A DNA stretch of 64,000 nucleotides from Jiella flava (GTDB lineage: Bacteria; Pseudomonadota; Alphaproteobacteria; Rhizobiales; Rhizobiaceae): contig NZ_JAFMPP010000019.1 of NCBI RefSeq assembly GCF_017349315.1, positions 1 to 64,000 on the forward strand, in the 5' to 3' direction. The first letter of the stretch is position 1. Every line of letters begins with the position of its first letter. The notes beneath the pieces were generated by a model that was given only the letters and a program-made list of their open reading frames with translations, was not told the DNA's origin and ran no database searches. Positions 4,425 to 37,243 of this stretch are shown in pieces. The position numbers and the translations under genes are program-made.

Positions 4425-4435
4425 GGGGCTGAGAT

Positions 4436-18985: not shown

Positions 18986-18990
18986 GGCGC

Positions 18991-22251: not shown

Positions 22252-22568
22252 ATCGCAATCATTAATGCAATTATTTTATCATTGTCCGCTCGAACGGCGC
22301 TCCGCTCTGTCTGAAATGGCAGTTGATGCCGTGGAGGATCGATGCCGCGGCATTTTGCTGCCCCCGCCCATTCCGGCGAACACAGGAGCGCATCGCTGTC
22401 CTGCGATGTTCGCTCCGAGGCTCGTTGCCGTGTGACAACCACACAAATGGCCCAACAGACACCGTCCCGAGGCCCGTCCAATCCGCCACCACGCTTGCCG
22501 GTGTTGGGGACTTCTGGAACTGACCGGAACCAAGATCGTCGTAAAATGCGTTGCGGCCGACAGACCCC
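22252..22568. other. Gene-free boundary between moc-like cluster and catabolic island
   Basis: The AT-rich part near 22255-22285 probably belongs to the transporter-operon promoter. The rest shows no ORF with a ribosome-binding site, no terminator with a T-run and no recognisable transposase remnant or direct-repeat end. Base composition changes from here towards the strongly C-ending codon use of the island. Confidence 0.45.
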
Positions 22569-23777
22569 TCAATCGGCGTGCCAAGTCTTGACCGGCGACC
22601 CTGTCGACGGCCGGGACTGCTCCGCGATCGCCCGTGCCAGCCCAATCAGCCGACGGTCGCTTCCCCGCGGCCCGACCAGCGACAGGCCCACGGGCGCCCC
22701 TTCGACCTCGGCCAACGGCACGCTAATCTGGGGCAGCCCGGCATGGCCGGCCAGACAGAGGAGCGAGAGCGCCCGGTTGCGGTAAAGCTCCATCTGCGCG
22801 CCCGACGAGCCCAGACGTGGCGCCGCCCCCGGCGCGGTGGGAACCAGCATGACCCCCTCCGGAGCGAGCCGATCCATGATGATCGCAGCGATCCTCGCGC
22901 GCAGCGCCCTTGCCGTCGCAATGGCCTCGGGGTGAAGCCGCAGCGCCGCCTCGAACCGCTCTCGCACGCCCGGGCCGAATTCCGGGTTGTTGGCGCGGAT
23001 CCAGTCACCGAAGACCTCGGCAACCTCCGCTCCCTGCACGATACCGAAGACCGGCTGCAACTCGGCGATCAATGCGGGCGGCAACAGCGCCGACCGGTCG
23101 GCTCCGTCGCGATGGCGCGCCAGCGGCACCGCCGCGTCGGGCGCAAGCGCCCAGATATCGTCGGGAGCGATCGACCGGTGCGGGCCCCTCGGAGCCTCCT
23201 TTGCAACCGCCTCGGTGATCCCCCCCAGCACCGCGTCGGCGACGCGCGACAGCGTCGCACCATCCCGCGTGAGGAACCCCGGCACGTCGTAGGAGGGCGC
23301 CAGCGCCTGCAATCCCACCGCAGGCAGCAAGCCATGGGTCGGCCGCCAGCCCCAGAGGCCGCAGAACGAGGCCGGCAACCGAACCGACCCACCGGTGTCC
23401 GAGCCGAGACCGATGTCGGCCAAACCTTGCGCTACCGCAGAGGCGGACCCCGAAGAGGAGCCACCCGGCACACGCTCCGGCGCGGCGGGGTTGAGGGGCG
23501 TTCCATAATGGGCATTCTCGCCCATCAGTGAATAGGCCAGCTCATCCATATGGGTCTTGCCCACGGGCCGAGCGCCCTGCCTGATCAGTCGATCCACGAG
23601 GGGCGCGGTATCGAGGGCGGGCGGACGCGAGGCCGCCCACAGCGGATGCCCCGAGCCCGCGATCGTCCCCGCCAGTTCGAAATTGTCCTTGATCGCCAGG
23701 CGCAGCCCGGCGAGCGGCCCGTCGCCCGCGGGAAAATCGGCGGGGTCGAGCGTCAGAACGAAGGGCGAAGCGGCCAT
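22569..23777 (-). CDS. Amidase-signature hydrolase
   Basis: A 402-residue amidase of the Ser-cisSer-Lys family. The catalytic lysine is in LAIKDNF (residue ~30), and the signature GGSSSGSASAVAQGLADIGL continues to SDTGGSVRLPA, which holds both serines. It is shorter than typical GatA (~480), near the size of AtzE/AtzF and allophanate-type amidases without an extra C-terminal domain. ATG 23777 shares its A with the TGA stop of the upstream gene (TGATG), so translation is coupled. It is the last gene of the hydrolase operon and should cleave a small amide or carbamoyl product of the pathway. Confidence 0.87.
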   Translation of the reverse strand: MAASPFVLTLDPADFPAGDGPLAGLRLAIKDNFELAGTIAGSGHPLWAASRPPALDTAPLVDRLIRQGARPVGKTHMDELAYSLMGENAHYGTPLNPAAPERVPGGSSSGSASAVAQGLADIGLGSDTGGSVRLPASFCGLWGWRPTHGLLPAVGLQALAPSYDVPGFLTRDGATLSRVADAVLGGITEAVAKEAPRGPHRSIAPDDIWALAPDAAVPLARHRDGADRSALLPPALIAELQPVFGIVQGAEVAEVFGDWIRANNPEFGPGVRERFEAALRLHPEAIATARALRARIAAIIMDRLAPEGVMLVPTAPGAAPRLGSSGAQMELYRNRALSLLCLAGHAGLPQISVPLAEVEGAPVGLSLVGPRGSDRRLIGLARAIAEQSRPSTGSPVKTWHAD

Positions 23778-25468
23778 CACACCCCCTCCTCTGCTGGCAG
23801 GATCGGCAGGGTCAAGGCGCAGTCGGCGCCCAGCTGCAGGACGATCGTAGTCACCAATGCGGCCTCCGCGGCCGCGGTCACCGGGTCGGCCCCGGTGCCC
23901 GGATTGACCGGATGGGCCGGAAAATCCGAGGCGGCGAGCGAGAGGCGCAGCGCCTCGCCCGGCTGCAGAGTGCGGCAGGTGCCGGTCATCGCGATCTTGA
24001 CCGGGCCGTCGGGCCGTTCGCGCAGGTGCCGGTATCCGCCGCAGAGCGGCGCAACCTTGCCCGAACGCTCAATCACCGACAGGGTCGCCGAAAGGTCAAA
24101 GCTCGGCCGGTCGGCCGTGACGCGGAGTGACAGCGCCACCCGCCCCGCCAGGCGGACAGGCGCGTCGAATGGTGCGGTGTCGAAGGTCGCGACATCGCCT
24201 CGCGCGTCGGTCTCGCTGCGGTCATGGGGGCCCGGGCCCCGCCCATAGATCGGCCCTGCCGCCGGCGCCGGGCGCCAGGGATCGTGGACGATGATCTCCG
24301 AGCCTTGGCCCGGGGCTTCGGCCAGACCGCCATCGCCCGGCCGCGTCGCCGCCCGGCCCGCACCGGTCAGATAGAGCCGGCGCGGGGTCGTGGGCAGCGC
24401 GGCGTGGCTCTGCCAGCGGCCGGTGCCCATGTCGAAGAGCCGCACCCGGTCATCCGCCGCAAGGGTGCCCCTGCCTTTGAGCACCGCGTCGAGAAAGGCG
24501 ATCTGTGCCCGGTCGGTGTCGGTCGCTGCTTCGGGGCCGAAATCCATGCCAGCCAGATGCCGCGTCCAAGGGAAATGCGCCCAGGGCCCGACTTTTAGCC
24601 GCAGCGTCGGATCACCGGGCCGGTCGAGGGCTGAGAATCCTGTCAGGGTGGCGCCCAGAAAGCTATCGTACCAGCCGCCGATGAACAGCATCGGCAGACC
24701 CCGCGCCCGAAGCCTCGCCACCTGCGCCCCGACCGAGATCATCTGCCAGCGCGGATCGTCGGGCGGGGTGGTCGACCAGGCGGGAAAGTGGCCAGCGGCC
24801 TGCGCGCCGACCAGCGCCTCGGGCTGGCCCGGAACCCGGCCGGAAAACAATCCTGGGAGGCCTGCGCGCAGACTGGCATGGGCCGCGCCCTGCCCCGCCC
24901 GGCGCGCGCCCTCGACGGCGATCTGGGTGCCCCAGCCGGCCATTTCGGCCAGGTTGAACGCGCCGCCCTGCCAGGCCCAACCCTCGGCCGGATCCCACGG
25001 CCCCATCGCCGGGATGAGCGCCGCCAGCGAGGGGCAGTCGCCGGTGGCGGCCAGAAGCTGGTTATAGGCCTGATAGGAAAACCCATACATCGCGACCCGG
25101 CCGTCCGAGCCGGGCAGCGCCGCCGCCCATTCCACCGTCTCGGCACCGTCAGCGGCCTCGTCAGCGCCCGGGTCGAACCGGCCCTCGGAGGTGCCGCGCC
25201 CGCGCACGTCCTGAACCACCACTAGATAGCCCTGCGCCGCATACCAGGCCGGATGGGCGTAGCAGACAGTGCAGCCGATCCGCCGCCCGTAGGCCTGCCG
25301 CTGCAAGAGCACCGGCCAGGGCCCCGGCCCCGCCGGGCGCCAGATATCGGCATCGAGCCGCGTGCCGTCCGCTGTGGTCATCGACCGGGTTTCGGGCGCC
25401 AGCACGCCCCCGCCCCCCGCCATGGGCAGATCCGGCAGGCCCAATGGCGGCTGGTCGGGCCTGGTCAT
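23777..25468 (-). CDS. CocE/NonD family serine hydrolase
   Basis: A 563-residue hydrolase of the cocaine-esterase / X-Pro dipeptidyl-peptidase (S15) family. An alpha/beta-hydrolase core has the nucleophile in GFSYQAY (Ser131), VVVQDVRGRGTSEG before it, and the catalytic His in VGPWAHF (~residue 290). A beta-rich jelly-roll domain follows at the C-terminus (~370-563). The family hydrolyses esters or amides of bulky compounds, including tropane esters. No signal peptide is seen, so it is cytoplasmic. Both ends overlap neighbours by 1-4 bp within the operon. The substrate is unknown. Confidence 0.88.
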   Translation of the reverse strand: MTRPDQPPLGLPDLPMAGGGGVLAPETRSMTTADGTRLDADIWRPAGPGPWPVLLQRQAYGRRIGCTVCYAHPAWYAAQGYLVVVQDVRGRGTSEGRFDPGADEAADGAETVEWAAALPGSDGRVAMYGFSYQAYNQLLAATGDCPSLAALIPAMGPWDPAEGWAWQGGAFNLAEMAGWGTQIAVEGARRAGQGAAHASLRAGLPGLFSGRVPGQPEALVGAQAAGHFPAWSTTPPDDPRWQMISVGAQVARLRARGLPMLFIGGWYDSFLGATLTGFSALDRPGDPTLRLKVGPWAHFPWTRHLAGMDFGPEAATDTDRAQIAFLDAVLKGRGTLAADDRVRLFDMGTGRWQSHAALPTTPRRLYLTGAGRAATRPGDGGLAEAPGQGSEIIVHDPWRPAPAAGPIYGRGPGPHDRSETDARGDVATFDTAPFDAPVRLAGRVALSLRVTADRPSFDLSATLSVIERSGKVAPLCGGYRHLRERPDGPVKIAMTGTCRTLQPGEALRLSLAASDFPAHPVNPGTGADPVTAAAEAALVTTIVLQLGADCALTLPILPAEEGV

Positions 25469-26295
25469 GCGCGGTCCTGCGGGAGCGCGTGATCGGGCGC
25501 CGTGTTGAACGTCTCCAGAGGAAAGGCGGAAACCTCGCCGATCAGGGTCAGGAGGCGCCCGACCGCGCGGTCGAACACCGCCGCCCCCCGCTCGGCATCC
25601 GCTGCCGCGGCATTGCCCGCGGCGCCCGAGGGATGCAGATCCTGCGCCTGCCAGCCAAAGCCCACGGCACCCTCGGGCGTCAGCATTCCGCCGATCTGCT
25701 CCAGCGCGACCGACAGCGGCACGAAGTCGCCCGCCTGGTCCATCCCGACCAGATCCGGCCTAAGGTGCAGCATGACGCTGGTTTCCACCTCGCCGCCATG
25801 AATGCCGTGGTTCAGCTCATGGTCCGAGAACAGATCATTCATCGGCGTAAAGCGCGACCACGTGGATGACACCGCCAGCATGCCCAGTTCGATCCGCAGG
25901 CGCCGGCAGACCATTTCCATCACCTGCGGCTGGCCGCCATGGGAGTTGACGAAAAGGATCCGCCGGCAGCCGGCGCGCCGGACGCTGCGGGCGATCTCGA
26001 ACCAGTACTCGGCCAAAAGCGGCCCGGGGATGGTCAACGTGCCGGGATAGGCCAGATGTTCGTCGGACTTGCCCACCGCCGACAGGGGCAAGACCAGCGC
26101 GGGAAAGTCGGGATCCATCCGCTCCACCGCCGCCCGGATCAACCGGTCGCAGATCTCGGCGTCGACGCGGACCGGCAAGTGGGGTCCGTGCTGTTCGGTC
26201 GCCCCGACCGGAAACACTGCCACCACCTGCGACAGGTCCAGCGCCGCGAAGTCGGCCGTGGTCAGATCGCTCCACCAATGGGATTTCAAGGTCAT
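25465..26295 (-). CDS. Creatininase family amidohydrolase
   Basis: A 276-residue metal-dependent hydrolase of the creatininase superfamily. The metal residues appear in GATEQHGPHLPVRVDAE (Glu34, His36, Asp45), FVNSHGGQ (His119) and HGGEVETS (Glu169/171), the full set expected for activity. The superfamily opens cyclic amides (creatinine, formamides, F420 and mycofactocin precursors), so ring opening is a reasonable guess. Nothing else in the window points to creatine metabolism. Its stop overlaps the next gene by 4 bp (ATGA). Confidence 0.87.
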   Translation of the reverse strand: MTLKSHWWSDLTTADFAALDLSQVVAVFPVGATEQHGPHLPVRVDAEICDRLIRAAVERMDPDFPALVLPLSAVGKSDEHLAYPGTLTIPGPLLAEYWFEIARSVRRAGCRRILFVNSHGGQPQVMEMVCRRLRIELGMLAVSSTWSRFTPMNDLFSDHELNHGIHGGEVETSVMLHLRPDLVGMDQAGDFVPLSVALEQIGGMLTPEGAVGFGWQAQDLHPSGAAGNAAAADAERGAAVFDRAVGRLLTLIGEVSAFPLETFNTAPDHALPQDRA

Positions 26296-26359
26296 CTCGT
26301 CCTTTCGCTACGGCAGAGCCCCGGCATGCCACAGGCGGCAGAGGGGCAAGTGGGAGGAA

Positions 26360-26743
26360 TCAATGCGTGTCGGCCATCAGCGAGACATGGGCGGCGACCA
26401 CCTTCCACCCGTCCGCGGTCAGGATCCAGGTCTGGCTTTGCCGGCCCAGACTGCCCCCGGCGCGGCGGAAGATCAGGTTGCACACGCCGAGGTCGGGGCC
26501 AAAAGTGACGATGTCGCGCCGCACCACCTCCCGCGCGGGAGAGCCGCCGGGGCGGGCCTTGCGGAATGCCCGGATCTCGTCGATGCCATGCAGGTTCTCG
26601 CCCACGCCATAGCGCAAGGTCAGCGGGCTGTCCCAGAACAGCGCATCCATCTCGTCGAGCCGATTGTCCCTGAGCGCCGTCTCATAGGCATCGCAGGCCG
26701 CGGTCAGGTTGGCCAGGGTCTCGTCGTCGTTCACGATCATCAT
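26360..26743 (-). CDS. HpxZ/AtzH-like SnoaL-fold protein
   Basis: A 127-residue protein of the DUF3225/HpxZ family, with TALRDNRLDEMDALFWDSPLTLRYGVGENLHG and a C-terminal SQTWILTADGWKVVAAHVS. Relatives include HpxZ of oxalurate breakdown and AtzH of cyanurate breakdown, where the gene sits beside an amidase. AGGAGG lies only 1 base before the first ATG (26743), so ATG 26740 or GTG 26734 may be the real start. Its presence next to amidases links the operon to nitrogen-rich ring degradation. Confidence 0.8.
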   Translation of the reverse strand: MMIVNDDETLANLTAACDAYETALRDNRLDEMDALFWDSPLTLRYGVGENLHGIDEIRAFRKARPGGSPAREVVRRDIVTFGPDLGVCNLIFRRAGGSLGRQSQTWILTADGWKVVAAHVSLMADTH

Positions 26744-26783
26744 GCCTCCTTTCCCACCGGTCGCGGCGCTGACCGCGTGCTCA

Positions 26784-28031
26784 TCATGCCCGGGGATCCC
26801 GCATCAGGACCGGTTCGGGCCGCCAGAGCCGAACCCGCCCGCCCCGCACCACCCCGGTGACCGGGGCATTGCGGCGGATGGCCTCCGCCTCGGTCCGGGC
26901 GGCCAAAAGCACGAATTCCGCGCTCTGACCGACCGCGATGCCCGGCGCGGCCAGCCCGGTGATCTCTTGCGCGGCGGACGAGATCATCCGCCATACGCCG
27001 GCCAGCGCGGTCTCGCTCCCCAGCTGGTCGAGATGGGCGTAATACTGCGCCATGCGCAAAAGCGCGGCGTCACCGAATGGGGTGAACGGATTCTCGACAT
27101 TGTTGGTCGCCAAGGCGACGGTCGCGCCGAGCCCGGCAATCTCGGCCGCCGGCGCCATGCCGCGGGGGCGCATCGGGCCCTGCCCGGCGGCGTTGAGGAA
27201 ACTGTCGGTCGCAGGCAGCACCACCAGCCCGACGCCTGCGCGGGCCATGGCGCGCGCCAGCTCCTGGCGTTGCGCCTCGGGAAAAGACGCGAACTTGGTG
27301 GCATGGCCGACGGTCACCCGCCCCTGCCAGCCGCGTGCCTCGGTCTCGGCCAGGATCACCGGCAGGATCGTGCCCTCCGGATCAAGGTCGAAATCCGCAT
27401 GGAAATCGACATCGACGTCGAACTGCTCCGCCAGGTCAAAGATCGCCCGGACATGAGCCGGCGGGTCGGTATCGGTATAGGGGCAGCCGCCCACCAGATC
27501 GGCCCCCGCCGCCAGCGCCTCGGCCAGAAGCGCCAGCGTCTCGGGTTCCTGCGTCAGTCCTTCTTGCGCGAAGACGCAGACCTGCACCTCGATCAGGTCG
27601 GCAAAATCGCGGGCCAGCTGCAAGACCCCTTCGAAAGCGCGCAGCCCCACGCGGGGGTCGACCTCGGCAAAGCTGCGCATGCGAAGGGTGCCCGCGCGCA
27701 CCGCCATCTCCAACACCTCGGCGCCGCGGGCGTGCACGTCCTCGGCCGTAAAGCCCGCCTTGGCCGCCGCGGTCAGTCGCACCGCCTCGGAAAGCGTGCC
27801 CTCGCAGATCGGACAGCGACCGAGGATCAGCGCCTTGTCCAGATGAACATGCGCATCGGTGAAGCCCGGCACCATCAGCGCGCCTTGCGCGTCCAGCACC
27901 TCCGCCCCGTCGGTATCGACCTCGGTCTCCAGCGCGGCAATACATCCGCCCTCGACCCGCACCGACAGGCCGGCGCGCCCGTCGGGCAGCCGCAGATTGC
28001 GGATCACGAAGGGCGCGTCATTCGCCAGCAA
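26784..28031 (-). CDS. Cytosine-deaminase-like amidohydrolase with altered active site
   Basis: A 415-residue amidohydrolase-superfamily protein resembling CodA. The metal motif HVHLD (61-65) and later histidines H211 (DFHADFD) and H243 (VGHATKF) are present. Aligned by eye to E. coli CodA, the catalytic Glu217 position is Phe214 and the metal-ligand Asp313 position is Asn310 (TNNVENPFTPFG). It is therefore unlikely to be a standard cytosine deaminase and may be a diverged hydrolase. The start is TTG 28031, with GGAG upstream, overlapping the monooxygenase gene by 14 bp. Confidence 0.82.
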   Translation of the reverse strand: MLANDAPFVIRNLRLPDGRAGLSVRVEGGCIAALETEVDTDGAEVLDAQGALMVPGFTDAHVHLDKALILGRCPICEGTLSEAVRLTAAAKAGFTAEDVHARGAEVLEMAVRAGTLRMRSFAEVDPRVGLRAFEGVLQLARDFADLIEVQVCVFAQEGLTQEPETLALLAEALAAGADLVGGCPYTDTDPPAHVRAIFDLAEQFDVDVDFHADFDLDPEGTILPVILAETEARGWQGRVTVGHATKFASFPEAQRQELARAMARAGVGLVVLPATDSFLNAAGQGPMRPRGMAPAAEIAGLGATVALATNNVENPFTPFGDAALLRMAQYYAHLDQLGSETALAGVWRMISSAAQEITGLAAPGIAVGQSAEFVLLAARTEAEAIRRNAPVTGVVRGGRVRLWRPEPVLMRDPRA

Positions 28032-29499
28032 GACACATCTCCGCCACCGCTCGTTCCTCTTCCGCGAGCCAGCGCGCCATGGCGTCAGGCACCACGACTC
28101 CGGGCGCGGTCAGGGCCTCCAGCTGCGGCATGATCTTGTCGATCTGCTCGTCGAAAAGCCGCCGGGTCACCGCCTGTACCAGTCGCGGCGTGCCATGAAG
28201 GAAGGCCGCGATCGACACCGAAGCAAAGCTGCCCATGCTCATCGCCGACAGCTGATTGAAGGCCAGCACCCTGTCGATCCCCGGCGCGCTGCCCGGGGTC
28301 CGTTCCGTAAAGGCATAGTCGTCGAGCCAGGGGAAATCCAATTTGGGGCTGCGTTCCTCGCCCGCCGGCGGGGTGAAGCGATCGCGCCACAGCGCGGCCT
28401 CCTCGCGCAACCGCGAGAGCTCCGGGCGCAGCGCCATGTTCACCCCCACCCCGGTCGCGGCAAAGAGGTGGTCGAAGCCCCAGAGCCGCCGCGGCGTGCG
28501 CAGCGCGATCTCACTGCCCGTCCAGGACAACGCCTCGATCCCCGATCCAACGTGAATCTTGAAGTTCTCGAACGTGCAGGCCCGGTGAAAGTGATGCGCC
28601 GCAGGGGCCTGACGCAGCCCCCCGACATAGGACGAGATCTGCCACTTGACCTCGGGCGGAATGCGCGCCGCATGAACCAGGAAGCCGCCGGTCTCGAACC
28701 AGCGCAGCACGTCGCGCAGCGGCAGCTCGGGGCGGCGGATCAGCATGTCGACCCGTTCGGCCCCGGCGTCGAGCGCCGTCACCGCCATGTCGAAGGCCGC
28801 AGCTCCCGCGCCCAGCACCGCAACGCGCTTGCCACTCAGATGGCGCTCGTCAAAAACGTCCGCAGAATGGTTCCAGACATGCCGCGGCAGGTTCTCAGAC
28901 ACGATCCCGGGTGTGACCCAGGCTCCGCCGCCCTCCATCCCCGTGGCCAGCACCAGAAGCCGCGCGCGCATCGTGCCGCCGCCGGCCAGCGACAGGCTCA
29001 CCCCATCGGCGTCATAATCGATTCGCTCGACCCGCGTGTCGTTGCGGATTTCGAGCCCCGCGAAGCTGCGGAACCAGCGCAGATAATCCATCCAGATCGT
29101 GCGCGGCACGCCGCCCATCGCGTCCCAGGCAGGCTGGCCCAGCCGCGCCACCGTGTAAGCCTCGATCGACAGGGACGGAATGCCTCCCTCGATCCCCGTG
29201 GTTTCCTTGGGAGAGCGGATCTCGTAATTGCGGGCATAGGTTTCCCAGACGCCTTCGCACCCGGCCGGACTGGCGTCGAGCAGGACGACATTGGTGACGC
29301 CGTGACGTTTCAGCCCCCAGCCCGCGGCAAGTCCGCTCTGCCCGGCGCCGAGGATCACCACGTCGGGCATCTCCGGCCCCTGCCCCGGGGCGGGTAGAAC
29401 CCAAGGCCGGGTCGCAAAGCGCATCATCTCGATATCGCGGCGGATTTGTGCGGCCAGCGCATCGAGGCGCGCCTCAGCCTGAGGGTGATTTTGTAGCAT
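28018..29499 (-). CDS. Flavin-dependent monooxygenase-like NAD(P)/FAD oxidoreductase
   Basis: A 493-residue protein with two Rossmann motifs: GAGQSGLAAG (51-60) for FAD and VLGAGAAAFDMA (~residue 215) for NAD(P)H. The layout is that of flavin-containing, N-hydroxylating or Baeyer-Villiger monooxygenases, without the textbook FxGxxxHxxxY fingerprint, so the exact class is open. ATG 29499 follows GGGAAGAG. It is the first gene of the hydrolase operon (monooxygenase, amidohydrolase, HpxZ-like, creatininase-like, CocE, amidase), suggesting that oxygenation precedes hydrolysis. A LysR-type palindrome lies ~100 bp upstream. Confidence 0.83.
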   Translation of the reverse strand: MLQNHPQAEARLDALAAQIRRDIEMMRFATRPWVLPAPGQGPEMPDVVILGAGQSGLAAGWGLKRHGVTNVVLLDASPAGCEGVWETYARNYEIRSPKETTGIEGGIPSLSIEAYTVARLGQPAWDAMGGVPRTIWMDYLRWFRSFAGLEIRNDTRVERIDYDADGVSLSLAGGGTMRARLLVLATGMEGGGAWVTPGIVSENLPRHVWNHSADVFDERHLSGKRVAVLGAGAAAFDMAVTALDAGAERVDMLIRRPELPLRDVLRWFETGGFLVHAARIPPEVKWQISSYVGGLRQAPAAHHFHRACTFENFKIHVGSGIEALSWTGSEIALRTPRRLWGFDHLFAATGVGVNMALRPELSRLREEAALWRDRFTPPAGEERSPKLDFPWLDDYAFTERTPGSAPGIDRVLAFNQLSAMSMGSFASVSIAAFLHGTPRLVQAVTRRLFDEQIDKIMPQLEALTAPGVVVPDAMARWLAEEERAVAEMCLAGE

Positions 29500-29595
29500 C
29501 GCTCTTCCCTTGCGGGGGCGGGCAGACGCGCCCGCCGAGCCCAAAGCTACCGGCCTCTTAGGACAAAGGGACAGCGCAGAATAAGGCGCGCATCG

Positions 29596-29610
29596 TTGCC
29601 TATCGGGCAA
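29596..29610. promoter_or_regulatory. LysR-type binding palindrome upstream of the hydrolase operon
   Basis: TTGCC-TATCG-GGCAA is a perfect inverted repeat fitting the LysR T-N11-A rule. It lies ~97 bp before the monooxygenase start, and the same pattern occurs at 33264-33278 and, as TTGC-N7-GCAA, at 33330-33344. Confidence 0.65.
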
Positions 29611-29742
29611 CGGCGCCCGCCGCCCACACACGGGCGGGCCCGGCAGGCCCCCAACGGCGAGATCGACCACGGGCGCGGCGGCGGAAACGGGCAGCGCCAG
29701 GCGTGATCTCTCGGTTGAATTGGAGGAAGCAGGCTGCCAGGC

Positions 29743-30690
29743 TTAGGCGTCGGCCACGCGCCAGACCTCCAGCTTTTCGGAGAACAGCGGCAGCGCGGCG
29801 GTCAGCCGCTGCAAGAGCACCGCCGCGGCATTGGACCGGCCCTGGCTCATCTGCGTCCAGAGGACGATCTGCATCTTGGGCGTCGCCCGGCCTGAAAGCG
29901 GAACGAAGACCAGATCGCCGCGGCCAAGGCGCTCCATGATCCCCACCGGACTGCGCACCGCGAGGCCAAGGCCCGCCAGCACGAGGTCCAGCGCACTATC
30001 GGAGGTGTTGATCTCGATGAACGGCCGGTGGCGACCGCCTTCGGTGAGGATATGATTGACCGGCCCGCCGCCGCCATAGCCGGCGCTGCCAAGCACCATC
30101 CGTTCCCCCGCCAGATCCGACAGCGTCACACTGGCGCGGCTGGCCAGCGGATGATCGGGGCGCATGATCGCGCCGGTAGGGATCGGCAGCGCCGCAATCC
30201 GGCGGATGTCGGACCGGGTCGGCGGATCCACCGACAGGCCGATGTCGGCCTCTCCATCGGCCAAACATTCCATGACCTTGGCGGCCTCCTGCATGATCAG
30301 CGAGTAGGAGATCCCGGGATATTCCTTGGAGAACTTCGCCAGCTCAGGCCCGAAAAAATCGCGCGCGATGCCGTCTTCCAGCGCAATCCGCACATGGCCC
30401 CGGCGCAATCCGCGCATGTCGTCGATCTGCGCGATCGCCTTGTCCAGATCGCGCTGCAGGTTGCTGATATAGCCGTAGAGAACCTCACCCGCCGCGGTCA
30501 GTTTGACCCCGTCGGCCACCCGGTCGAACAGCCGCACCTGCAGCTGATCCTCCAGCTTCAGGATCTGCCGATTCACCGCCGAGGGCGCGATCGACAGGAA
30601 ATCCGAGGCCTGACGCATCGACCCGGCGCGGGCGGCTTCGGCAAAGTAGCGCAGCGCCACCAGGTGGACATGAACGAAACTCTTGGGCAT
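29743..30690 (-). CDS. LysR-family transcriptional regulator
   Basis: A 315-residue LysR regulator. The N-terminal winged helix is at residues ~8-65 (YFAEAARAGSMRQASDFLSI then SAVNRQILKLEDQL), followed by an effector domain with GHVRIALEDG. ATG 30690 follows GAGAAGG. It lies between the hydrolase operon and the ABC permeases on the same strand, and palindromes of one type lie ahead of both operons, so it is the likely pathway activator. An ORF extending to 31206 in this frame is an artefact overlapping the permease. Confidence 0.9.
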   Translation of the reverse strand: MPKSFVHVHLVALRYFAEAARAGSMRQASDFLSIAPSAVNRQILKLEDQLQVRLFDRVADGVKLTAAGEVLYGYISNLQRDLDKAIAQIDDMRGLRRGHVRIALEDGIARDFFGPELAKFSKEYPGISYSLIMQEAAKVMECLADGEADIGLSVDPPTRSDIRRIAALPIPTGAIMRPDHPLASRASVTLSDLAGERMVLGSAGYGGGGPVNHILTEGGRHRPFIEINTSDSALDLVLAGLGLAVRSPVGIMERLGRGDLVFVPLSGRATPKMQIVLWTQMSQGRSNAAAVLLQRLTAALPLFSEKLEVWRVADA

Positions 30691-30791
30691 CGACCTTCTC
30701 TTTCCAGTTCGCGGAAAAGATATAGGCCGAGATGCAGATTGGGCGCCAGGCGGCATCGCCGGTTCCGCCACACATGGCCACTTCGCGCGTT

Positions 30792-31544
30792 TTAGCGCGT
30801 CCGGCGGCTCAACGCCCATTTTTCGCCCGCGGCGGTGATGCCGTAGAAGGCCAGCGCCAGCAGACAGGCCAGCGTCGCCGCCGCCCAGACATCGGCGACG
30901 CGGTAGCCCTGGCCGTAGGAGATGATCAGGTAACCGAGCCCCTGGTCCGAGGCCAGCCACTCGGCCACCAGTGCCGAGACGATCGACGAGCAGGCCGAGA
31001 GCTTCAAGGCGGTGAACATGAAGGGCAGCGCCGCAGGCAATCGCACCTTCCAGAACAGCTGTTCGGGGCTGGCCGAATAGCTGAGCATCAGCTCCTGGAC
31101 ATCCGCATCGACGTTGGAAAAGCCGCGATAGGCGTTCACCAGCATCGGAAAGAAGCTCAGAAAGGCCGCGATGAAGATCTTCGGCGCCATGCCGTTGCCC
31201 ATCCACAGCATCAGTACCGGCAGGATCGCCACCACCGGCACCGCCTCCATCAAGATGGTCAGCGGAAAGACGGCGCGCTGCAACGCGCCGAAGCGGATGA
31301 ACAGCGCGGCAGTCGCCAGTCCTGCCAGGCTGCCCAGCACAAAACCCGACACCGCTTCGGTCAGGGTGATCAGCCCGTTCGACAGAAGCGTCGGTGCCTC
31401 GGTGATCAGCGCGGTGACGATCTGCACCGGCCCGGTCAGCACCAGCTTCGATACCATCCCGGCCTCGATCACCCCCTGCCAGACGACCAACACCGCCAAG
31501 CCAAAGGTCACCGGCAACACCACGCGGTGCATCAGTTGCGCCAT
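30792..31544 (-). CDS. SsuC/TauC-type ABC transporter permease (second)
   Basis: A 250-residue inner-membrane permease with six predicted segments and the binding-protein-dependent motif ELMLSYSASPEQLFWKVRLPAALP, which docks the ATPase. It belongs to the nitrate/sulfonate/taurine/pyrimidine-precursor import class. It starts 1 bp after the stop of the companion permease (31546-32325), so the two are translated together and probably form a heterodimer. Confidence 0.9.
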   Translation of the reverse strand: MAQLMHRVVLPVTFGLAVLVVWQGVIEAGMVSKLVLTGPVQIVTALITEAPTLLSNGLITLTEAVSGFVLGSLAGLATAALFIRFGALQRAVFPLTILMEAVPVVAILPVLMLWMGNGMAPKIFIAAFLSFFPMLVNAYRGFSNVDADVQELMLSYSASPEQLFWKVRLPAALPFMFTALKLSACSSIVSALVAEWLASDQGLGYLIISYGQGYRVADVWAAATLACLLALAFYGITAAGEKWALSRRTR

Positions 31545-31545
31545 T

Positions 31546-32325
31546 TCAGACCTCCGTCGCCTGTTGGGTCCAGCGCCCCGCCAGACGCTCGGCCAACAGG
31601 ATCAGCCCCAGCAGCGCCAGCGTCATCAGCGCTGCGGAAAAGATCGCGGCCCACATCAGCGGCAGGCGGAAATACTGGCCCGAGACCATCACCAGATAGC
31701 CCAGTCCGGCATTGGCCGCGATCCACTCGGTCACCAGCGCGTTGACGAAGGCCGTCGAGGCCGCGACCTTGAGCGCGGCAAAGAGATATGGCAGCGCCGA
31801 GGGCAGCTGGACCTTCCACAGGATCTGCGTGGGGCTGGCCGAAAGACTATACAACAGCTCCATCCGATCGGGATTTGACCGCTCCAGCCCGCGCATCATG
31901 CCAAGGAAGACCGGGAAGTAGGTGGTCACCGACACGATCACCATGACCGGCACGATGCCGCGCCCGACCACGATCACCAGGACCGGGGTAAAGACGATCA
32001 GCGGCAGCGCCCGGCTGGCCAGCGCGTAAGCGTAGAGCGTCTGCCGCAACGGCGCGACCAGCGTCATCACCATCGCCGCGGCCACGCCGAGGACGGAGCC
32101 AATCGCGCACCCCCCCAGCGCCTCGGTCGCGGTGACCTGGGCATGTTTCAAAAGGACGGCGCGCGAGACATCGAATTCGTGCAACACGGCACCTGGACCG
32201 GGCAGCAGCCAGCGCGGCAACAGGCCGGTCGCCGCGCTCCAGCCCCAAATCGCGACCAGCGCCGCGACCAGCACCACGGGCGGCAGGATCCGCGCGCCGC
32301 GCCCCATCCACAGCTCACGCGTCAT
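31546..32325 (-). CDS. SsuC/TauC-type ABC transporter permease (first)
   Basis: A 259-residue permease paralogous to the next gene, with the matching docking loop ELLYSLSASPTQILWKVQLPSALP. The two-permease arrangement differs from the homodimeric SsuC and resembles heterodimeric thiamine-precursor-type importers. It overlaps the 3-prime end of the ATPase gene by 11 bp. It is part of the transcription unit ATPase - permease - permease (- LysR). Confidence 0.9.
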   Translation of the reverse strand: MTRELWMGRGARILPPVVLVAALVAIWGWSAATGLLPRWLLPGPGAVLHEFDVSRAVLLKHAQVTATEALGGCAIGSVLGVAAAMVMTLVAPLRQTLYAYALASRALPLIVFTPVLVIVVGRGIVPVMVIVSVTTYFPVFLGMMRGLERSNPDRMELLYSLSASPTQILWKVQLPSALPYLFAALKVAASTAFVNALVTEWIAANAGLGYLVMVSGQYFRLPLMWAAIFSAALMTLALLGLILLAERLAGRWTQQATEV

Positions 32326-33139
32326 GGTGCAACGCCCGCCGCAACATCAGCTCATAATGGCCAAAGCGCGGATCCTCTCGCGTTGCGGGCGTGCGATGCT
32401 GGCCGAGATCAACATCGATCACCTGCGAGATCCGGCCTGGACGCGGCGTCATCACCACCACCTTGTCCGACAGGATCACCGCCTCGGCGATCGAGTGGGT
32501 GACCAGGAAGAGCGTCGCCCCCGTCTCTTCGAGGATCCGCAACAGCTCGAAATGCAGCCGATCGCGGGTGATCTCGTCCAGCGCGCCGAAGGGCTCGTCC
32601 ATCAACAGAAACCGCGGACGCAGGGTCAGCGCCCGTGCGATCGCCGCGCGTTGCCGCATGCCGCCCGAAAGCTCGGCCGGCAGGCTTTTCTCGAAACCTT
32701 TCAGCCCGACCAGAGCCAGACTTTCGGCGGCCCGCTCCAGCCGTTCGGGCTTCGATGTACCGGCGATTTCCAGCCCCAGCGCGACATTATCGATCACCGT
32801 GCGCCACGGCAGCATGGTGGAGCCCTGCTGCACCAGCGCATAGACTCGGTTGGCGCGCGCTTCTGCCGGAGTGAGGCCGTAATGGCTGGCCGTGCCGGAG
32901 GTCGGCTGAACGATGTCGGCAAACACCCGCAGCAGCGTGGATTTCCCGCAGCCAGAGGCACCGATCAGCGCCGCCCGCGTGCCGCGCGGAATGTTCAACG
33001 ACACGTCCTTGAGCGCATCGATCACCTGGGTGCCGCGCCGAAAGGTGACGCTCACCCCTTGGGCCACGAGGCCCGCGGCGCCGGTCGCCTCGCTCGCGGT
33101 GTCTGCCCTGGTCAAGCTGGCGGCGCTGGCTGACGTCAT
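32315..33139 (-). CDS. SsuB/TauB-type ABC transporter ATP-binding protein
   Basis: A 274-residue ATPase with Walker A GASGCGKST, signature LSGGMRQRAAIARAL, Walker B FLLMDEPFGALD and switch HSIAEAV. The first ~30 residues are a Ser/Ala/Thr-rich extension. ATG 33139 is preceded by GAGGAG. It is the first gene of the importer operon, divergent from the questin-oxidase-like gene across a 332-bp region carrying two LysR-type palindromes. Its binding protein is probably the one at 36233-37243. Confidence 0.92.
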   Translation of the reverse strand: MTSASAASLTRADTASEATGAAGLVAQGVSVTFRRGTQVIDALKDVSLNIPRGTRAALIGASGCGKSTLLRVFADIVQPTSGTASHYGLTPAEARANRVYALVQQGSTMLPWRTVIDNVALGLEIAGTSKPERLERAAESLALVGLKGFEKSLPAELSGGMRQRAAIARALTLRPRFLLMDEPFGALDEITRDRLHFELLRILEETGATLFLVTHSIAEAVILSDKVVVMTPRPGRISQVIDVDLGQHRTPATREDPRFGHYELMLRRALHHDA

Positions 33140-33263
33140 GCCGGATGTTCTCCTCTCTGAAAACGGGCCACGAATGGCGCGGCACACCGCGCATGTCTCG
33201 CAGCCGTTCTGAGGCTAGCGGCGCGACACCGGTCGGCACAAACACCATTTGGTGGGTAGGCTA

Positions 33264-33278
33264 TTGCCCAACAGGCAA
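33264..33278. promoter_or_regulatory. LysR-type binding palindrome, divergent promoter region, site A
   Basis: TTGCC-CAACA-GGCAA is a perfect inverted repeat of the same form as 29596-29610, in the region between the importer ATPase and the questin-oxidase-like gene. Confidence 0.65.
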
Positions 33279-33329
33279 CACCGACATGCGCTCGCCGCCT
33301 TGCCCTGTCGGAGAATTGGCAGGGTGGCG

Positions 33330-33344
33330 TTGCGCCCCCGGCAA
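33330..33344. promoter_or_regulatory. LysR-type binding palindrome, divergent promoter region, site B
   Basis: TTGC-GCCCCCG-GCAA (GTTGC...GCAAC when extended) lies 66 bp from site A, about six helical turns, so both sites would face the same side of the DNA. No gene is seen in 33140-33471. Confidence 0.6.
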
Positions 33345-33471
33345 CGGTTGAAGCTTTTCAATCGCTTAGCGGACGCGAACACGGCGCGACACCCGCGCCT
33401 TGACGCTTGCGCCGCAAGCCGGGCGGCGCATGATCAGGCACCGTCCAAGGCACCGCAAGAGGGAGCAACAC

Positions 33472-34539
33472 ATGCATGGCCGACACTTCCAAGGCCCCGA
33501 AATGACGCCGGCCACCCGCCAGAGCCTGGACGACCTGCTGGCGCGGATGCCGGCGTTTGGCAGCGAATTCGCGCTGACCTTCGCCAACCATGCGCCGATG
33601 GTTCTTGTGGCGCAAGCGCGGATGGGCGGCAGCCCGGCACAGATGCAGCGCTTTTTCGACTTCTACAGCGGCTACAAAAGGCTCCTTCCGTTCCAGGACT
33701 GCGCCTTTGATATCGCTCCCGACGACTGGCAGGCGTATCTCGGCGAGCGTCGCGCCGAAGGCGCCTACCGACGGCTGTTTGACGCCGAGATGGCGGCGCT
33801 GGGGCGCGCGGCACTGCTCGCCCGCTGGCTGCCGCGGCTGGCGCCGGGGATCGGCGCCTCGGCCTTTCACGGGCTGATGCGCACGGCTTACGGAGTGATC
33901 GACGACAACGATGCCGAGATCGTGCTGGGCCTGGCCTATTGGTGCGCGACCTGGCTGATGATGCCCGCCCGCACCGGCACCGCCGCACTGACGGACGACC
34001 CGGCGGCGGTCCTCGCCCACGCGGGATCCATTCCGGCGATGCACGGTCAGCCGGTGCATCCGCTGATCTGGCACAACATGCGCCAGAGTTTTGGTCTGCC
34101 GGGGTTCGAGACCGCCGGTGACTGGCTGGCGATCAACGACACGGCCTGCGCGCGCTGCGCCGCTGCCTCGATCGCGCTTTTTGCCGCGACACAGGATTTT
34201 TGCGCCCTGCACGCGGTGACCGGGATGCATTGGATCCGCGTCCTTGCCCCCTATCACGGCGCCACGCCCGAGATGGTGCGCTGCTTCTGGGCCGGGGTGG
34301 CCGCGCTGATGAACGAGATGGGCTATCCCGCTCTGCCCGCGCCCGCCACGCTGGACCGCTGGCGCAGCCTGCCCTGCCCCGACTGGCCCGAGATTTTTCA
34401 CGCCGCCTGCCAGAGCCTTGACGAACACGACCTCAGCCTGACCTTCAGCGCCCAGCAGGAGGAGGCGGTCTATGGCGACCCGCTCTACCGCCGGGCCGCC
34501 GCCCGCCGGCTGGGCCTGATTGCGGAGATGACGGCATGA
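33472..34539 (+). CDS. Questin-oxidase-family protein
   Basis: A 355-residue protein of the DUF4243/questin oxidase family; the fungal founder cleaves an anthraquinone ring by a Baeyer-Villiger-type oxidation. Visible are the early segment FTNHAPM-like (LTFANHAPMVL), GIGASAFHGLMRTAYGV in the middle and ALHAVTGMHWIRVL late, containing the family histidines. ATG 33472 has GAGGGAG upstream. Its stop overlaps the amidohydrolase start by 4 bp. It supplies a second possible oxygenation step beside the flavin monooxygenase. The bacterial substrate is unknown. Confidence 0.8.
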   Translation: MHGRHFQGPEMTPATRQSLDDLLARMPAFGSEFALTFANHAPMVLVAQARMGGSPAQMQRFFDFYSGYKRLLPFQDCAFDIAPDDWQAYLGERRAEGAYRRLFDAEMAALGRAALLARWLPRLAPGIGASAFHGLMRTAYGVIDDNDAEIVLGLAYWCATWLMMPARTGTAALTDDPAAVLAHAGSIPAMHGQPVHPLIWHNMRQSFGLPGFETAGDWLAINDTACARCAAASIALFAATQDFCALHAVTGMHWIRVLAPYHGATPEMVRCFWAGVAALMNEMGYPALPAPATLDRWRSLPCPDWPEIFHAACQSLDEHDLSLTFSAQQEEAVYGDPLYRRAAARRLGLIAEMTA

Positions 34540-36047
34540 GCACGCCGCAAAAGGCCGAAAGCTGCCTGGTCGAAGCCGACACCGTTCTGGTCGGGCTGAA
34601 GCCCGATGGCAGCATGGACCTGCGCCACGACGTGGCGCTCCACGTGCATGAAGGGGTGATTGCCCAGATCGGCCCACTGCGCGGCATGATGGGCGGCAAC
34701 GAAGATCTGCCAAGATATGGCGGCCGCGGCACCATCGTGATGCCCGGGATGACCAACGCACACCACCATTTCGGGATCACGCCGCTGATGGCCGGGGTGC
34801 CGTTCGAGCCGCTGGAATTCTGGCTGCCGCAATTTCGCATGATGCGCCCGGTGGGGGCGCGGCTGGATACGCTCTATTCGGCCATCGAGATGCTGGAGTC
34901 CGGGGTGACCACCGTTCACCACATCGCCAGTGCTTTGATCGGCGGCCCCGACGACTGGGACGGCCAGGCCGACGCCGTCATCGCCGCCTATGGCGAGGCC
35001 GGGATGCGGGCCGGCTGGTCGGTCATGCTGCGCGACCAAAACATCCTCGCCTATGACGGCGACGACGCGCTGCTGGCGGCGATGCCCGAGGCCGCGCGCA
35101 GCTGGTTCGCGCCGCGGCTTTACCCGCGCAACGGCAGCACCGCCGCCTATCTCGACTTTCACCACCGCTTGGCGCGGCGCCATGCCGCAAACCCGCATTT
35201 GCGGGTGAACTATGCGCCGGCCAACCTGCACTGGTGCTCCGACCCGCTGCTCGAAGCGCTGGGGGCTGCCGCCCGCGACAACGGCGCGCGGCTGCACATG
35301 CATCTCGTGGAGACCGAGCGGCAGGCGATCTATGCCCGCGAACGCTTCGGCTGCTCCGCGGTCAGACACCTGGAACGCCTCGGCTTTCTCGGCCCGCACA
35401 CGACCTTCGGCCATGGCAATTGGCTGGAGCCGGGCGACGCGGAAATCCTCGGGCAGTGCGGCTGCACGCTCTGCCACAACGCTTCATCCGGGCTGCGGCT
35501 CGGCAGCGGGCGGGCGGATATCGCGACGGCACTCAAGGCGGGCGTGGGGTTTGCGCTCGGAATCGACCAGTCGAACATCGCCGACGATCGCGACATGCTG
35601 CTGGAAATGAAGCTCGCCTGGGCTTTGCACCGCGGCACCACGATGTTCGGTCCGCGCGTGCCCGAGGCTGAGATCCTGCGTGCCGTCACCGAAACCGGGG
35701 CGGAAACCGCGGGCTTCGGCGGATGGACGGGCCGGGTCGAATGTGGGATGCGCGCCGATCTGGTGCTGCTCGACCGCGCCCGGGTGGAACGCCCCTTCAC
35801 CGACCCGCGCACCCCACCCGAGGCGCTGGTGCTGCACCGCGCGACCAAGGATGCGGTCCAAATGGTGCTGGTCGACGGCCGTCCGGTGGTGAAGGACGGC
35901 AAGGTCTGCCTTTTCGACCGCGACGCGGTGCTGGAGGAAATCCGCGTCAAGCTGACCGCGCCGCCCAGCGCGGCAGAGGTCGAGGCCGCCGCGATGGTCA
36001 GCGCCGCGATGCCGGCGATCCGGGCGCATTACGCGCGCTACGCCTGA
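34536..36047 (+). CDS. Amidohydrolase, TrzN/guanine-deaminase-like
   Basis: A 503-residue amidohydrolase-superfamily enzyme. The metal-binding motif NAHHHFG (75-81), HMHLVETE in the middle, GHGNWL and the Asp in GIDQSNIADD fit a mononuclear deaminase/chlorohydrolase-type active site. The family includes TrzN, AtzB, guanine deaminase and other C-N or C-Cl hydrolases. It is translationally coupled to the questin-oxidase-like gene (ATGA). A bidirectional terminator follows at 36102-36135. The ring substrate is inferred only from family and context. Confidence 0.85.
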   Translation: MSTPQKAESCLVEADTVLVGLKPDGSMDLRHDVALHVHEGVIAQIGPLRGMMGGNEDLPRYGGRGTIVMPGMTNAHHHFGITPLMAGVPFEPLEFWLPQFRMMRPVGARLDTLYSAIEMLESGVTTVHHIASALIGGPDDWDGQADAVIAAYGEAGMRAGWSVMLRDQNILAYDGDDALLAAMPEAARSWFAPRLYPRNGSTAAYLDFHHRLARRHAANPHLRVNYAPANLHWCSDPLLEALGAAARDNGARLHMHLVETERQAIYARERFGCSAVRHLERLGFLGPHTTFGHGNWLEPGDAEILGQCGCTLCHNASSGLRLGSGRADIATALKAGVGFALGIDQSNIADDRDMLLEMKLAWALHRGTTMFGPRVPEAEILRAVTETGAETAGFGGWTGRVECGMRADLVLLDRARVERPFTDPRTPPEALVLHRATKDAVQMVLVDGRPVVKDGKVCLFDRDAVLEEIRVKLTAPPSAAEVEAAAMVSAAMPAIRAHYARYA

Positions 36048-36101
36048 CGCACCGTCCGGGCCCGCTCCGGCGACCCCGCACCCGTGAACGAAGCAAATGA
36101 C

Positions 36102-36135
36102 AAACGCCCCGGTCCATCGCGGAACCGGGGCGTTT
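36102..36135. terminator. Bidirectional Rho-independent terminator
   Basis: AAACGCCCCGGT (36102-36113) and ACCGGGGCGTTT (36124-36135) form a 12-bp stem with a 10-base loop and T-runs on both strands. It lies between the convergent amidohydrolase and binding-protein genes. Confidence 0.85.
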
Positions 36136-36232
36136 TCTTGAGACGCGGGCGCTTACGGCACCGCCACAGCGGCGTTCGAACCAAAGCCGAGAGGGAAAGG
36201 GCCGAGAGGTCATTTCCCTTTGATCGGCGGTA

Positions 36233-37243
36233 TTACTGTTTGAAGGTACCGACGGCCTTGAGGATCTCGTCGGTCAACATCGGCGTCGGATCCACCACCT
36301 TATCGGTCAGGCCGGCCAGCTTGTCGTTCTCGGCCGTTTCCTTCCAGGTCGCGAGATTCAGCGACATGAAGCCGTCTTGCTTGGTCAGCGGACTGGTCAT
36401 GTAGCCGACCATCGCCTTGGCCTGGTAGATCTGCTGGTCCATGTCGAGACCGTCATAGAAGCCGCCGTTGACGATGAATTGGGCCGCCGCGGTCGGATCC
36501 TTGAAGAACACCTTCCAGGCCTCGAGCTCGGCCTTCAGGTATTTCTTGAGGATCTCCTTGTTCTTCGGATCGGCGAGGTACGAAGCCTTGACGAAGTAGG
36601 AATCCGACTGGCCGTTCATGCCCCAGTCGCCGAGGCTGATCACGTTGACCGGCACGCCGGCATCCTCGATCTGGCGCGGCTCGTTGAAGGCGAAGGTGGT
36701 GATCATGCAATCCACCCGGCCGGCGATGATCTGCGACACGTCGTTCGGGCCGATTGCGGTGGTCTTCAGGTCGCTCTTCTTGATGCCGTTCTTGCTGAGA
36801 AACAGGTCGGCGAAGGCCTGGGCGTTCTGCTTGACCCCCAGCGTATGACCGGGCAGGTCCGCGGGCTTGGTCACCCCGGAATCCTTGCGGCAGGTCATCG
36901 CCAGCGGCGTGCGCTGGAACTCCCCGGCGATCACCTTGAACTTTTCGCCCTTGTCCTGCCCCGCGAGGATCAGCTCCGGGTTGGAGATGCCGATCTGCGC
37001 GGTCCCGGCCGAGACCATCTGCACGCCGTCGACGCCAACGCCCGCAGGCACCAGCGTCACGTCCAGCCCCTCTTTCTCGAACAGGCCCTTGGCCTTGGCA
37101 TAGACAGGACCAAAGCTCTCGACGTTGGGGATGTAGCCCAGAACGACGGTCAGCTTGGTCATGTCCTGCGCATTGGCCGAACCGGTGTTCATGCCGGCGG
37201 CAAGAGTAGAGGCAAGCAAGGTGAGGCGGATGGTGGCTTTCAT
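36233..37243 (-). CDS. NMT1/SsuA-type ABC transporter substrate-binding protein
   Basis: A 336-residue periplasmic binding protein of the NMT1/THI5-like group. A Sec signal has likely cleavage after ANA at residue 25, then VVLGYIPNVESFGPVYAKAKGLFEKEGLDV and the central PGHTLGVKQNAQAFADLFL. ATG 37243 follows AGGAGC. The group binds thiamine-pyrimidine precursors, sulfonates, nitrate or aromatic acids. It is transcribed alone, but no other NMT1-type binding protein is in the window, so it very probably serves the importer at 30792-33139. It ends the island next to parB. Confidence 0.88.
   Translation of the reverse strand: MKATIRLTLLASTLAAGMNTGSANAQDMTKLTVVLGYIPNVESFGPVYAKAKGLFEKEGLDVTLVPAGVGVDGVQMVSAGTAQIGISNPELILAGQDKGEKFKVIAGEFQRTPLAMTCRKDSGVTKPADLPGHTLGVKQNAQAFADLFLSKNGIKKSDLKTTAIGPNDVSQIIAGRVDCMITTFAFNEPRQIEDAGVPVNVISLGDWGMNGQSDSYFVKASYLADPKNKEILKKYLKAELEAWKVFFKDPTAAAQFIVNGGFYDGLDMDQQIYQAKAMVGYMTSPLTKQDGFMSLNLATWKETAENDKLAGLTDKVVDPTPMLTDEILKAVGTFKQ

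Follow-up and report, generated by a model that had tools for sequence, protein, structure and literature searches.

The characterised enzymes of the questin-oxidase family (PF14027, also DUF4243) open or remodel rings. From the name of the family we take GedK of geodin biosynthesis to be one of its members, and the nonheme-iron mono-oxygenase that is reportedly the key enzyme of oxazinomycin (going by the title of a 2022 paper of Ren et al.) is presumably another DUF4243 protein. GedK is a cofactor-free ring-cleaving dioxygenase that opens questin hydroquinone, a reductase preparing the substrate (PMC9890505). MinC, a HAD phosphatase joined to a DUF4243 domain, is an enzyme in the synthesis of the N-heterocyclic C-nucleoside minimycin (PMC8724604). 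Here we compare these and other systems with an island of thirteen genes at positions 22569-37243 of a 64,000-nucleotide stretch of the Jiella flava genome (the window: assembly GCF_017349315.1, contig NZ_JAFMPP010000019.1, positions 1 to 64,000). The island encodes a questin-oxidase-like protein (QUEST) along with a flavin monooxygenase-like protein (FMO), an importer, a regulator and several hydrolases. Judged from its sequences, we consider it an evenly balanced proposition that the island specifies a regulated pathway by which an amino-substituted N-heterocycle is imported and broken down to scavenge its nitrogen.

QUEST and FMO would resemble GedK and GedF in that an oxygen-dependent ring opening needs a redox partner enzyme. 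GedK, however, is fungal and biosynthetic and has a carbocyclic substrate, and its partner GedF is an NADPH reductase, whereas that of QUEST is an FMO. MinC shares with QUEST a bacterial DUF4243 domain and has an N-heterocyclic product, but it is biosynthetic and fused to a phosphatase domain, and the excerpt of the source names no FMO partner for it. In Arthrobacter sp. IN13, 4-hydroxypyridine undergoes flavin-dependent hydroxylation, oxygenative opening to an N-formyl product and hydrolysis (PMC7356986). This order of events, brought about by KpiA, KpiC and KpiB, is the one that we propose for the island, although the enzymes are unrelated: KpiA belongs to PF01494, and KpiC, which opens the ring, is of the amidohydrolase type, whereas QUEST is a DUF4243 protein. 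The logic of hydroxylation, cleavage and hydrolysis is therefore already known, whereas the pathway itself is apparently undescribed, as had been suggested at the outset. No publication joining these gene families into a pathway was found in a search that is weak for subscription journals, and none on questin oxidase in Rhizobium; among the papers listed for DUF4243 or questin-oxidase-like proteins, all are fungal apart from a C-nucleoside review.

With the atzDGEHF and hpx oxalurate genes the island has in common an HpxZ/AtzH-like protein and an amidase-signature protein. We take the hpx oxalurate pathway to include the AtzG/AtzE-like HpxX/HpxY and the GGT-family protein HpxW. Profile scans found no AtzD, AtzE or AtzF and no GGT among the island genes, the amidase is of the PRK08310 family and not an AtzE, and nothing in atzDGEHF corresponds to FMO or QUEST. 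The hpx scan covered open reading frames of at least 120 amino acids; a small AtzG-like frame may be present. A cyanurate or oxalurate pathway as such was rejected on profile scores and gene content. One allophanate hydrolase domain is encoded elsewhere in the genome (contig C12). A ggt gene is described next to atzGEH (PMC6219798).

Gene content and organization of the island

All families named in the preliminary description of this DNA are present in the island, each supported by curated Pfam or NCBIfam profiles, and the bounds given there coincide with the stop codon of the amidase gene and the start methionine of the binding-protein gene. The starts of the FMO, LysR, QUEST and binding-protein genes were revised on inspection. 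The genes are:

22569-23780, minus strand: AMID, amidase-signature hydrolase of the PRK08310 family (Pfam Amidase, E 9.9e-64; PRK08310, 435 against a cut-off of 391)
23777-25468, minus strand: CocE/NonD family serine hydrolase (TIGR00976, CocE_NonD, 366 against 66.3; Peptidase_S15, 8.7e-62, with PepX_C)
25465-26295, minus strand: CREAT, creatininase-superfamily metallohydrolase (PF02633, E 1.2e-67, 228.3 against a cut-off of 31.3)
26360-26743, minus strand: HpxZ/AtzH-like NTF2-fold protein (PF11533, 8e-48; HpxZ equivalog NF033625, 145.1 against 135)
26784-28031, minus strand: AHcda, amidohydrolase on the cytosine deaminase/AtzC side (Amidohydro_3, 6.7e-24; best PDB match 4r7w)
28018-29499, minus strand: FMO, flavin monooxygenase-like, with FAD and NAD(P) domains (Pyr_redox_3, 3.2e-13)
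29743-30690, minus strand: LysR-type regulator (HTH_1, 2.3e-17; LysR_substrate, 9.8e-36)
30792-31544, minus strand: permease 2 of an ATP-binding cassette (ABC) importer (BPD_transp_1, 4.9e-28)
31546-32325, minus strand: ABC permease 1 (BPD_transp_1, 6.1e-23)
32315-33187, minus strand: ABC ATPase (ABC_tran, 2.7e-29); translation possibly begins at the ATG of codon 17
33502-34539, plus strand: QUEST, questin-oxidase-like (PF14027/DUF4243), a predicted ring-opening oxygenase
34536-36047, plus strand: AHatz, amidohydrolase of the TRZ/ATZ-8-oxoguanine-deaminase type (Amidohydro_1, 2.5e-35; best PDB match atrazine chlorohydrolase, 4v1x)
36233-37243, minus strand: SBP, NMT1/THI5-like substrate-binding protein (PF09084, 5.3e-38)

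The listed frame 29743-31206 starts within a permease gene, the true LysR start being lower. The frame 36377-37309 on the plus strand, which overlaps the SBP gene, had no family match in the Pfam scan. With an NMT1 binding protein, permeases and an ATPase, all parts of an NMT1/SsuA-type ABC importer are present; the PDB matches of the SBP are 3qsl, 4nmy and then the FAMP-binding 3ix1 (1.6e-8).

The genes had been described as tightly overlapping operons, which is largely correct. Overlaps of 4, 4, 14 and 11 bp occur on the minus strand and one of 4 bp between QUEST and AHatz, and 1 bp separates the permeases, but the minus strand also has gaps of 64, 40, 243 (FMO to LysR) and 101 bp (LysR to permease). 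The minus-strand genes need not form a single transcript, and QUEST-AHatz and SBP are separate units.

FMO and QUEST are the constant pair

FMO and QUEST are the heart of the system and the pair that stays constant between genomes. They were followed through 16 loci, namely the fetched loci with a QUEST match of at least 37% identity (the window, L013, L049, L055, L056, L063-L068, L072 and L077-L080). FMO is found in all 16, which is no fair test because most of these loci were reached via FMO or QUEST searches. The fair test of pairing is given by the 199 genomes of the family, among which QUEST occurs in eight and FMO in 41. In all eight QUEST genomes an FMO lies on the same contig, with 26-850 bp between the matches in seven and 3.7 kb in the window; QUEST of genome G543 is divided over two contigs, and the FMO adjoins one piece. 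The hypergeometric probability of co-occurrence in a genome, distance disregarded, is 1.8e-6, or 8.8e-6 without the genome of the window, both values being uncorrected for kinship.

QUEST matches 85 of 72,556 plasmid records, all of Rhizobium. Among plant symbionts, Rhizobium tropici CIAT 899 has QUEST at 1710238-1711281 and FMO at 1711329-1712717 of NC_020062, and R. leguminosarum bv. trifolii TA1 has QUEST and CREAT on CP053208. Among the matches listed for both proteins, the best FMO lies within 5 kb of QUEST on nine of 12 plasmid records; on the other three the listed FMO is at least 17 kb away, and each has a second FMO place. In locus L056 (genome G046, 2415-5027, minus strand) the two are fused in a single frame of 870 residues. 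Its FAD/NAD(P) domains match best over residues 80-326 and Questin_oxidase over 556-838, and all four His motifs are present.

The relatives of FMO are 35-42% identical among 60 relatives and 31-59% in the genome-contig search; that of L013 is 62% identical with a trimmed query. In a tree of FMO sequences (50 rows, long frames trimmed to the last 520 residues) the 14 QUEST-linked rows fall into two distant parts of seven each, with some unlinked ones between. This requires at least three label changes, and none of 500 shuffles was as low, a result that near-copies favour. Near copies left out of the tree are L018, L020, L022, L023, L025, L026, L027, L037, L039, L040, L042, L043, L065 and L067. 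From the split it follows that the pairing arose repeatedly, or that the FMO was exchanged within the pair.

QUEST scores 76 bits with PF14027 (cut-off 27). Across 18 aligned sequences six residues, counted from the start methionine, never vary: H30, H123, H237, H309, D307 and R127. The alignment (A1) left out L056, L065 and L067, and L085-L087 gave no tblastn match. The invariant His/Asp pattern suggests a metal or catalytic site.

Some FMO homologues lie in loci without QUEST. An HpxZ relative (43%) is found near that of L036 and AMID relatives near those of L015 (42%) and L047 (39%), and L015 and L036 also carry amidohydrolases. These neighbours are a weaker sign of an association between the FMO family and hydrolases of ureides or amides.

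Companion genes differ between the loci

The preliminary description had proposed a search for co-occurrence of the island genes, and that search bears out only part of the set. In what follows, a gene counts as absent from a locus if the island queries gave no tblastn match there at 1e-5. Besides the constant pair, an amidohydrolase-superfamily gene is present in 14 of the 16 loci (about 10 kb off in L049), AHatz in nine (window, L013, L063-L068, L077), CREAT in nine (window, L063-L068, L077, L079; relatives 54-62% identical) and CocE in seven (window, L063-L067, L079; in two pieces in L067 and cut by the locus edge in L079). HpxZ and AMID, in contrast, accompany the pair in the window only, one locus of 16. 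The ten genes are therefore not one conserved set. The core is nonetheless no chance array, because it is co-conserved in other genomes.

AHatz, CREAT and CocE recur with the pair largely on Rhizobium plasmids. The plasmid regions L063-L066 have the order LysR, a binding protein of another family, ATPase, permeases, FMO, CREAT, CocE, QUEST, AHatz. A nucleoside deaminase lies between CocE and QUEST in three of these four loci, and in four of five when L067 is counted. L067 agrees where it is annotated and by tblastn, its FMO, CocE and binding protein being unannotated; in the unannotated L068, tblastn finds no CocE. L013 keeps AHatz, QUEST, importer, LysR, FMO and SBP at 56-70% identity. In L079 the pair is accompanied by CREAT (62%), AHcda, an NMT1 binding protein and, where the locus is cut off, the end of a CocE gene (60%, 79 bits). 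L072 represents a second type, with FMO, QUEST, an amidohydrolase, AHcda and, in addition, an 8-oxoguanine deaminase equivalog (624 against 532). L055, L072 and L079 carry relatives of AHcda (48-51%), and a further one lies some 10 kb from QUEST in L064. CREAT relatives occur in 188 of the 199 family genomes at 1e-40, and the three best (the island's own, 62% in G576 and 53% in G510) all belong to QUEST loci.

Other loci have other finishing enzymes: an allophanate hydrolase in three of the 16 (L049, L078, L080) and a GGT-family gene in one (L055). Weak amidase matches (44-72 bits) were seen in L049, L068, L078 and L080, those of L049, L078 and L080 being the allophanate hydrolases of these loci. 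The window, L013 and L079 have an NMT1 binding protein, L064 has SBP_bac_8, and in L055 and L078 SBP_bac_1 lies near the pair. Importers of different families thus serve FMO and QUEST, and the importer is exchanged between loci. FGGY sugar kinases were also observed near the pair, together with the allophanate hydrolase, at L049:4652-6160 and L080:12859-14367.

Active-site residues of the hydrolases

The names of the hydrolases give no substrates, because CREAT and AHcda lack the residues and scores of their namesakes. CREAT does not reach the creatininase equivalog (TIGR04448, 77.8 against 235); E34, H36, D45 and the NSHGG His are conserved in it, whereas the Glu that binds the second metal is not. 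We take the metal roles of these residues, and the numbering of that Glu, from the Pseudomonas enzyme. Creatinine degradation was rejected on these two grounds, and the earlier label of a creatininase-like ring hydrolase is unsafe. So is that of a cytosine-deaminase-like protein for AHcda, in which the two catalytic acids of cytosine deaminase, Glu and Asp (presumably positions 217 and 313 of E. coli CodA), are replaced by Phe and Asn; cytosine deaminase is the enzyme with which the residues were compared. The replacement is common to all six sequences aligned from the clade, that of the window among them, and the family scores are not reached either (PRK05985, 220.6 against 408; PRK07572, 218.7 against 438). 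Cytosine deamination by AHcda was rejected, the catalytic acids being missing, and the clade probably catalyses a different reaction. Its members (window, L055, L064, L071, L072, L079) conserve the motifs LPATD and TNN..NPFTPFGD.

AHatz has the motifs NAHHH, HLVETE, GHGN and GIDQSN, which we take to be the metal and catalytic motifs of the TRZ/ATZ group, and falls short of the 8-oxoguanine deaminase profile NF006055 (159.9 against 532). AMID has the Lys/Ser motifs (IKD at 30, GGSSSGS at 106, GSDTGGS at 126) and lies below the AtzE-family cut-offs (192 against 461, 182 against 425.75). The Ser/Asp/His motif residues of CocE are at 131, 268 and 298; for the tropane-ester cleavage that had been considered, nothing was found beyond the broad CocE_NonD subfamily. 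HpxZ exceeds its equivalog cut-off and keeps, as Y20 and R44 in alignment with AtzH (6bjt), the active-site Tyr and Arg that were tested by mutation in AtzH (PMC6219798).

Creatininase-family genes were also observed in other settings. On the Klebsiella pneumoniae plasmid pMS14393A (L070) a fragmentary one has genes for an ABC importer and an acetamidase/formamidase as neighbours, and 352 Klebsiella plasmid records match the island CREAT. The contexts of the Klebsiella plasmid and Pantoea relatives are different, and neither FMO nor QUEST is annotated in them. The Jiella genome itself has a second creatininase-family gene, 38-39% identical to CREAT (within L102; contig C11, 18001-37500), and after it comes a stretch with 28% similarity to AHatz.

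A possible pathway

The gene set, its partial conservation, the linkage, one FMO-QUEST fusion and the conservation of motifs are established. From these we infer the order of the steps and the substrate, an N-heterocyclic ring being suggested by the deaminase-type enzymes, the ureide-finishing enzymes and the NMT1 import. The NMT1-type importer would take up the ring compound, and AHatz would strip an exocyclic amino group to leave a (hydroxy)pyrimidinone-like ring. FMO would hydroxylate this ring with NAD(P)H and O2, after which the four-His/Asp site of QUEST would add O2 to the hydroxylated ring and open it, like known enzymes of the family. The product, of the N-acyl urea or N-formyl amide type, could then be hydrolysed to ammonia by CREAT, CocE, AHcda, HpxZ and AMID. 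On paper, C5-C6 cleavage of a 5-hydroxypyrimidine-type ring would give an N-formyl-oxalurate-type acyl urea, and such a product would explain the presence of HpxZ here and of an allophanate hydrolase or GGT-family protein elsewhere. For any particular substrate, however, our confidence falls clearly short of even. The scheme agrees with the logic anticipated in the preliminary description as to import, oxygenation, ring opening and hydrolysis, but not as to ester cleavage before ring opening, an order that nothing in the sequences examined here fixes.

More generally, we tentatively suggest, at somewhat less than even confidence, that FMO and QUEST may together be an oxygenase of a kind not recognised before, with two components that are sometimes fused, which opens the rings of N-heterocycles. 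It would be a plug-in module of rhizobia and related bacteria, combined with varied importers, deaminases and finishing hydrolases, and would allow amino-pyrimidine-like rings to be converted oxidatively into oxalurate- or allophanate-type ureas and ammonia.

A number of observations weigh against these proposals. Of the 41 genomes with an FMO, 33 gave no QUEST match, which means that the FMO family has other partners. Among the distant QUEST homologues (L081-L088, eight of the nine genomes from the class search) an FMO match was found in none of the eight loci, the contigs of L081 and L083 being only 7-9 kb long. The fusion in L056 is the sole fused case and possibly reflects a stop codon lost in the assembly. 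The Pfam match of QUEST is modest (E 5.2e-21), its identity to the aligned bacterial homologues ranges from 24 to 66%, and a sequence comparison with the PDB gave no credible relative. AHatz was not found in seven of the 16 loci, L078 and L080 match none of the amidohydrolase queries, and AHcda, with both acids replaced, may not be a deaminase. The differing importers and the FGGY kinases of L049 and L080 may point to different, perhaps glycosylated, substrates. Lastly, the window is the one locus where HpxZ and AMID were seen alongside the pair, so that the oxalurate end of the scheme rests on this locus together with the other finishing enzymes elsewhere.

Alternative explanations

The restriction of HpxZ and AMID to one locus would also be expected if two pathways happened to be adjacent, the core (importer, LysR, FMO, QUEST, AHatz) serving one ring compound and separately gained hydrolases (AHcda, HpxZ, CREAT, CocE, AMID) another ureide or amide. 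The 21 kb of L013 indeed contain the core without the hydrolase block, the CREAT relatives in that genome are at most 39% identical, and 243 bp separate FMO from LysR in the island. Still, CREAT and CocE recur with the pair in nine and seven loci, in varied gene orders and species (six of the nine CREAT loci are Rhizobium plasmids), and AHcda relatives are found in L055, L072 and L079 and about 10 kb from QUEST in L064. We therefore regard two adjacent pathways as unlikely, though worth serious consideration. Less probable again is that HpxZ, which exceeds its cut-off and keeps the Tyr and Arg of AtzH, and the amidase of the same gene run mark a cyanurate- or oxalurate-type pathway proper, with the oxygenases as passengers: AtzD and AtzF are missing from the island, AMID is far under the AtzE cut-offs, and the supposed passengers are the most conserved part. 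We would give this explanation little credence.

The substrate might instead be a carbocyclic aromatic or quinone-like plant compound, whose carbon ring FMO and QUEST would open while the hydrolases trim ester or amide substituents, the gain being carbon and not nitrogen. The best described member of the questin-oxidase family opens an anthraquinone (PMC9890505), CocE-type esterases would suit ester trimming, and many of the hosts are plant-associated rhizobia. This fits poorly with an amidohydrolase-superfamily gene in 14 of the 16 loci, an allophanate hydrolase in three, an 8-oxoguanine deaminase in one and a nucleoside deaminase in four; moreover, no ring-carbon funnel genes are found among the island genes, the neighbours in other loci having been scanned only partly. 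On balance we think a carbocyclic substrate improbable. Since a DUF4243 domain protein acts in antibiotic biosynthesis (PMC8724604), the island could also encode tailoring enzymes, like those for minimycin, or a means of detoxification, and not a growth pathway. A dedicated binding-protein importer, a LysR regulator and several hydrolases argue against this, as does the lack of a synthase gene (nonribosomal peptide synthetase, polyketide synthase or glycosynthase) among the island genes, and we hold it to be very improbable.

Genomic context of the island

The parB and parA genes of the chromosome, with gidB and gidA, follow after the island, at 37604-42374. In eight of nine congeners at most 3 kb separate parB from the orthologue of gene 10889-11932, whereas here the distance is 25.7 kb; in five of these congeners a cupin gene, orthologous to 13018-13428, adjoins parB. 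In the ninth (L100) the orthologue of gene 10889-11932 was not found within the stretch examined. Homology stops near 13420 and restarts near 37594, which delimits the following feature:

13421-37593 (about 24 kb, no strand assigned): insertion bearing the island, ends approximate, with unrelated sugar-type genes on the left

The left end is approximate because L098, one of the congeners, has a further match, in inverted orientation, to 13545-13649. In its G+C content the insertion is composite, with 57-61% in the sugar-type block (15233-22215) and 63-73% in the catabolic block. That left block, with its clearly lower G+C content, encodes LacI, a sugar-type ABC importer and a TIM-barrel protein. 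A mobile-element mark at the insertion was rejected, no repeats, tRNA or integrase being found in the stretches compared: no 11-mer is common to 13300-14000 and 37200-37700 or to 21900-22700 and 37200-37700, the window contains no tRNA, and no integrase is among the Pfam-scanned genes between 13018 and 22215. The naming of gene 10889-11932, two genes after leuS, as holA was dropped, since Pfam gives it no family.

Implications

If the proposed pathway is correct, a catabolic role could be assigned to the questin-oxidase-like proteins of bacteria, genes for which occur on 85 Rhizobium plasmid records, and a new way to open aromatic nitrogen rings would be added to those already described. It would also mean that plant-associated bacteria use some unnamed N-heterocycle of plants or soil as a nitrogen source.

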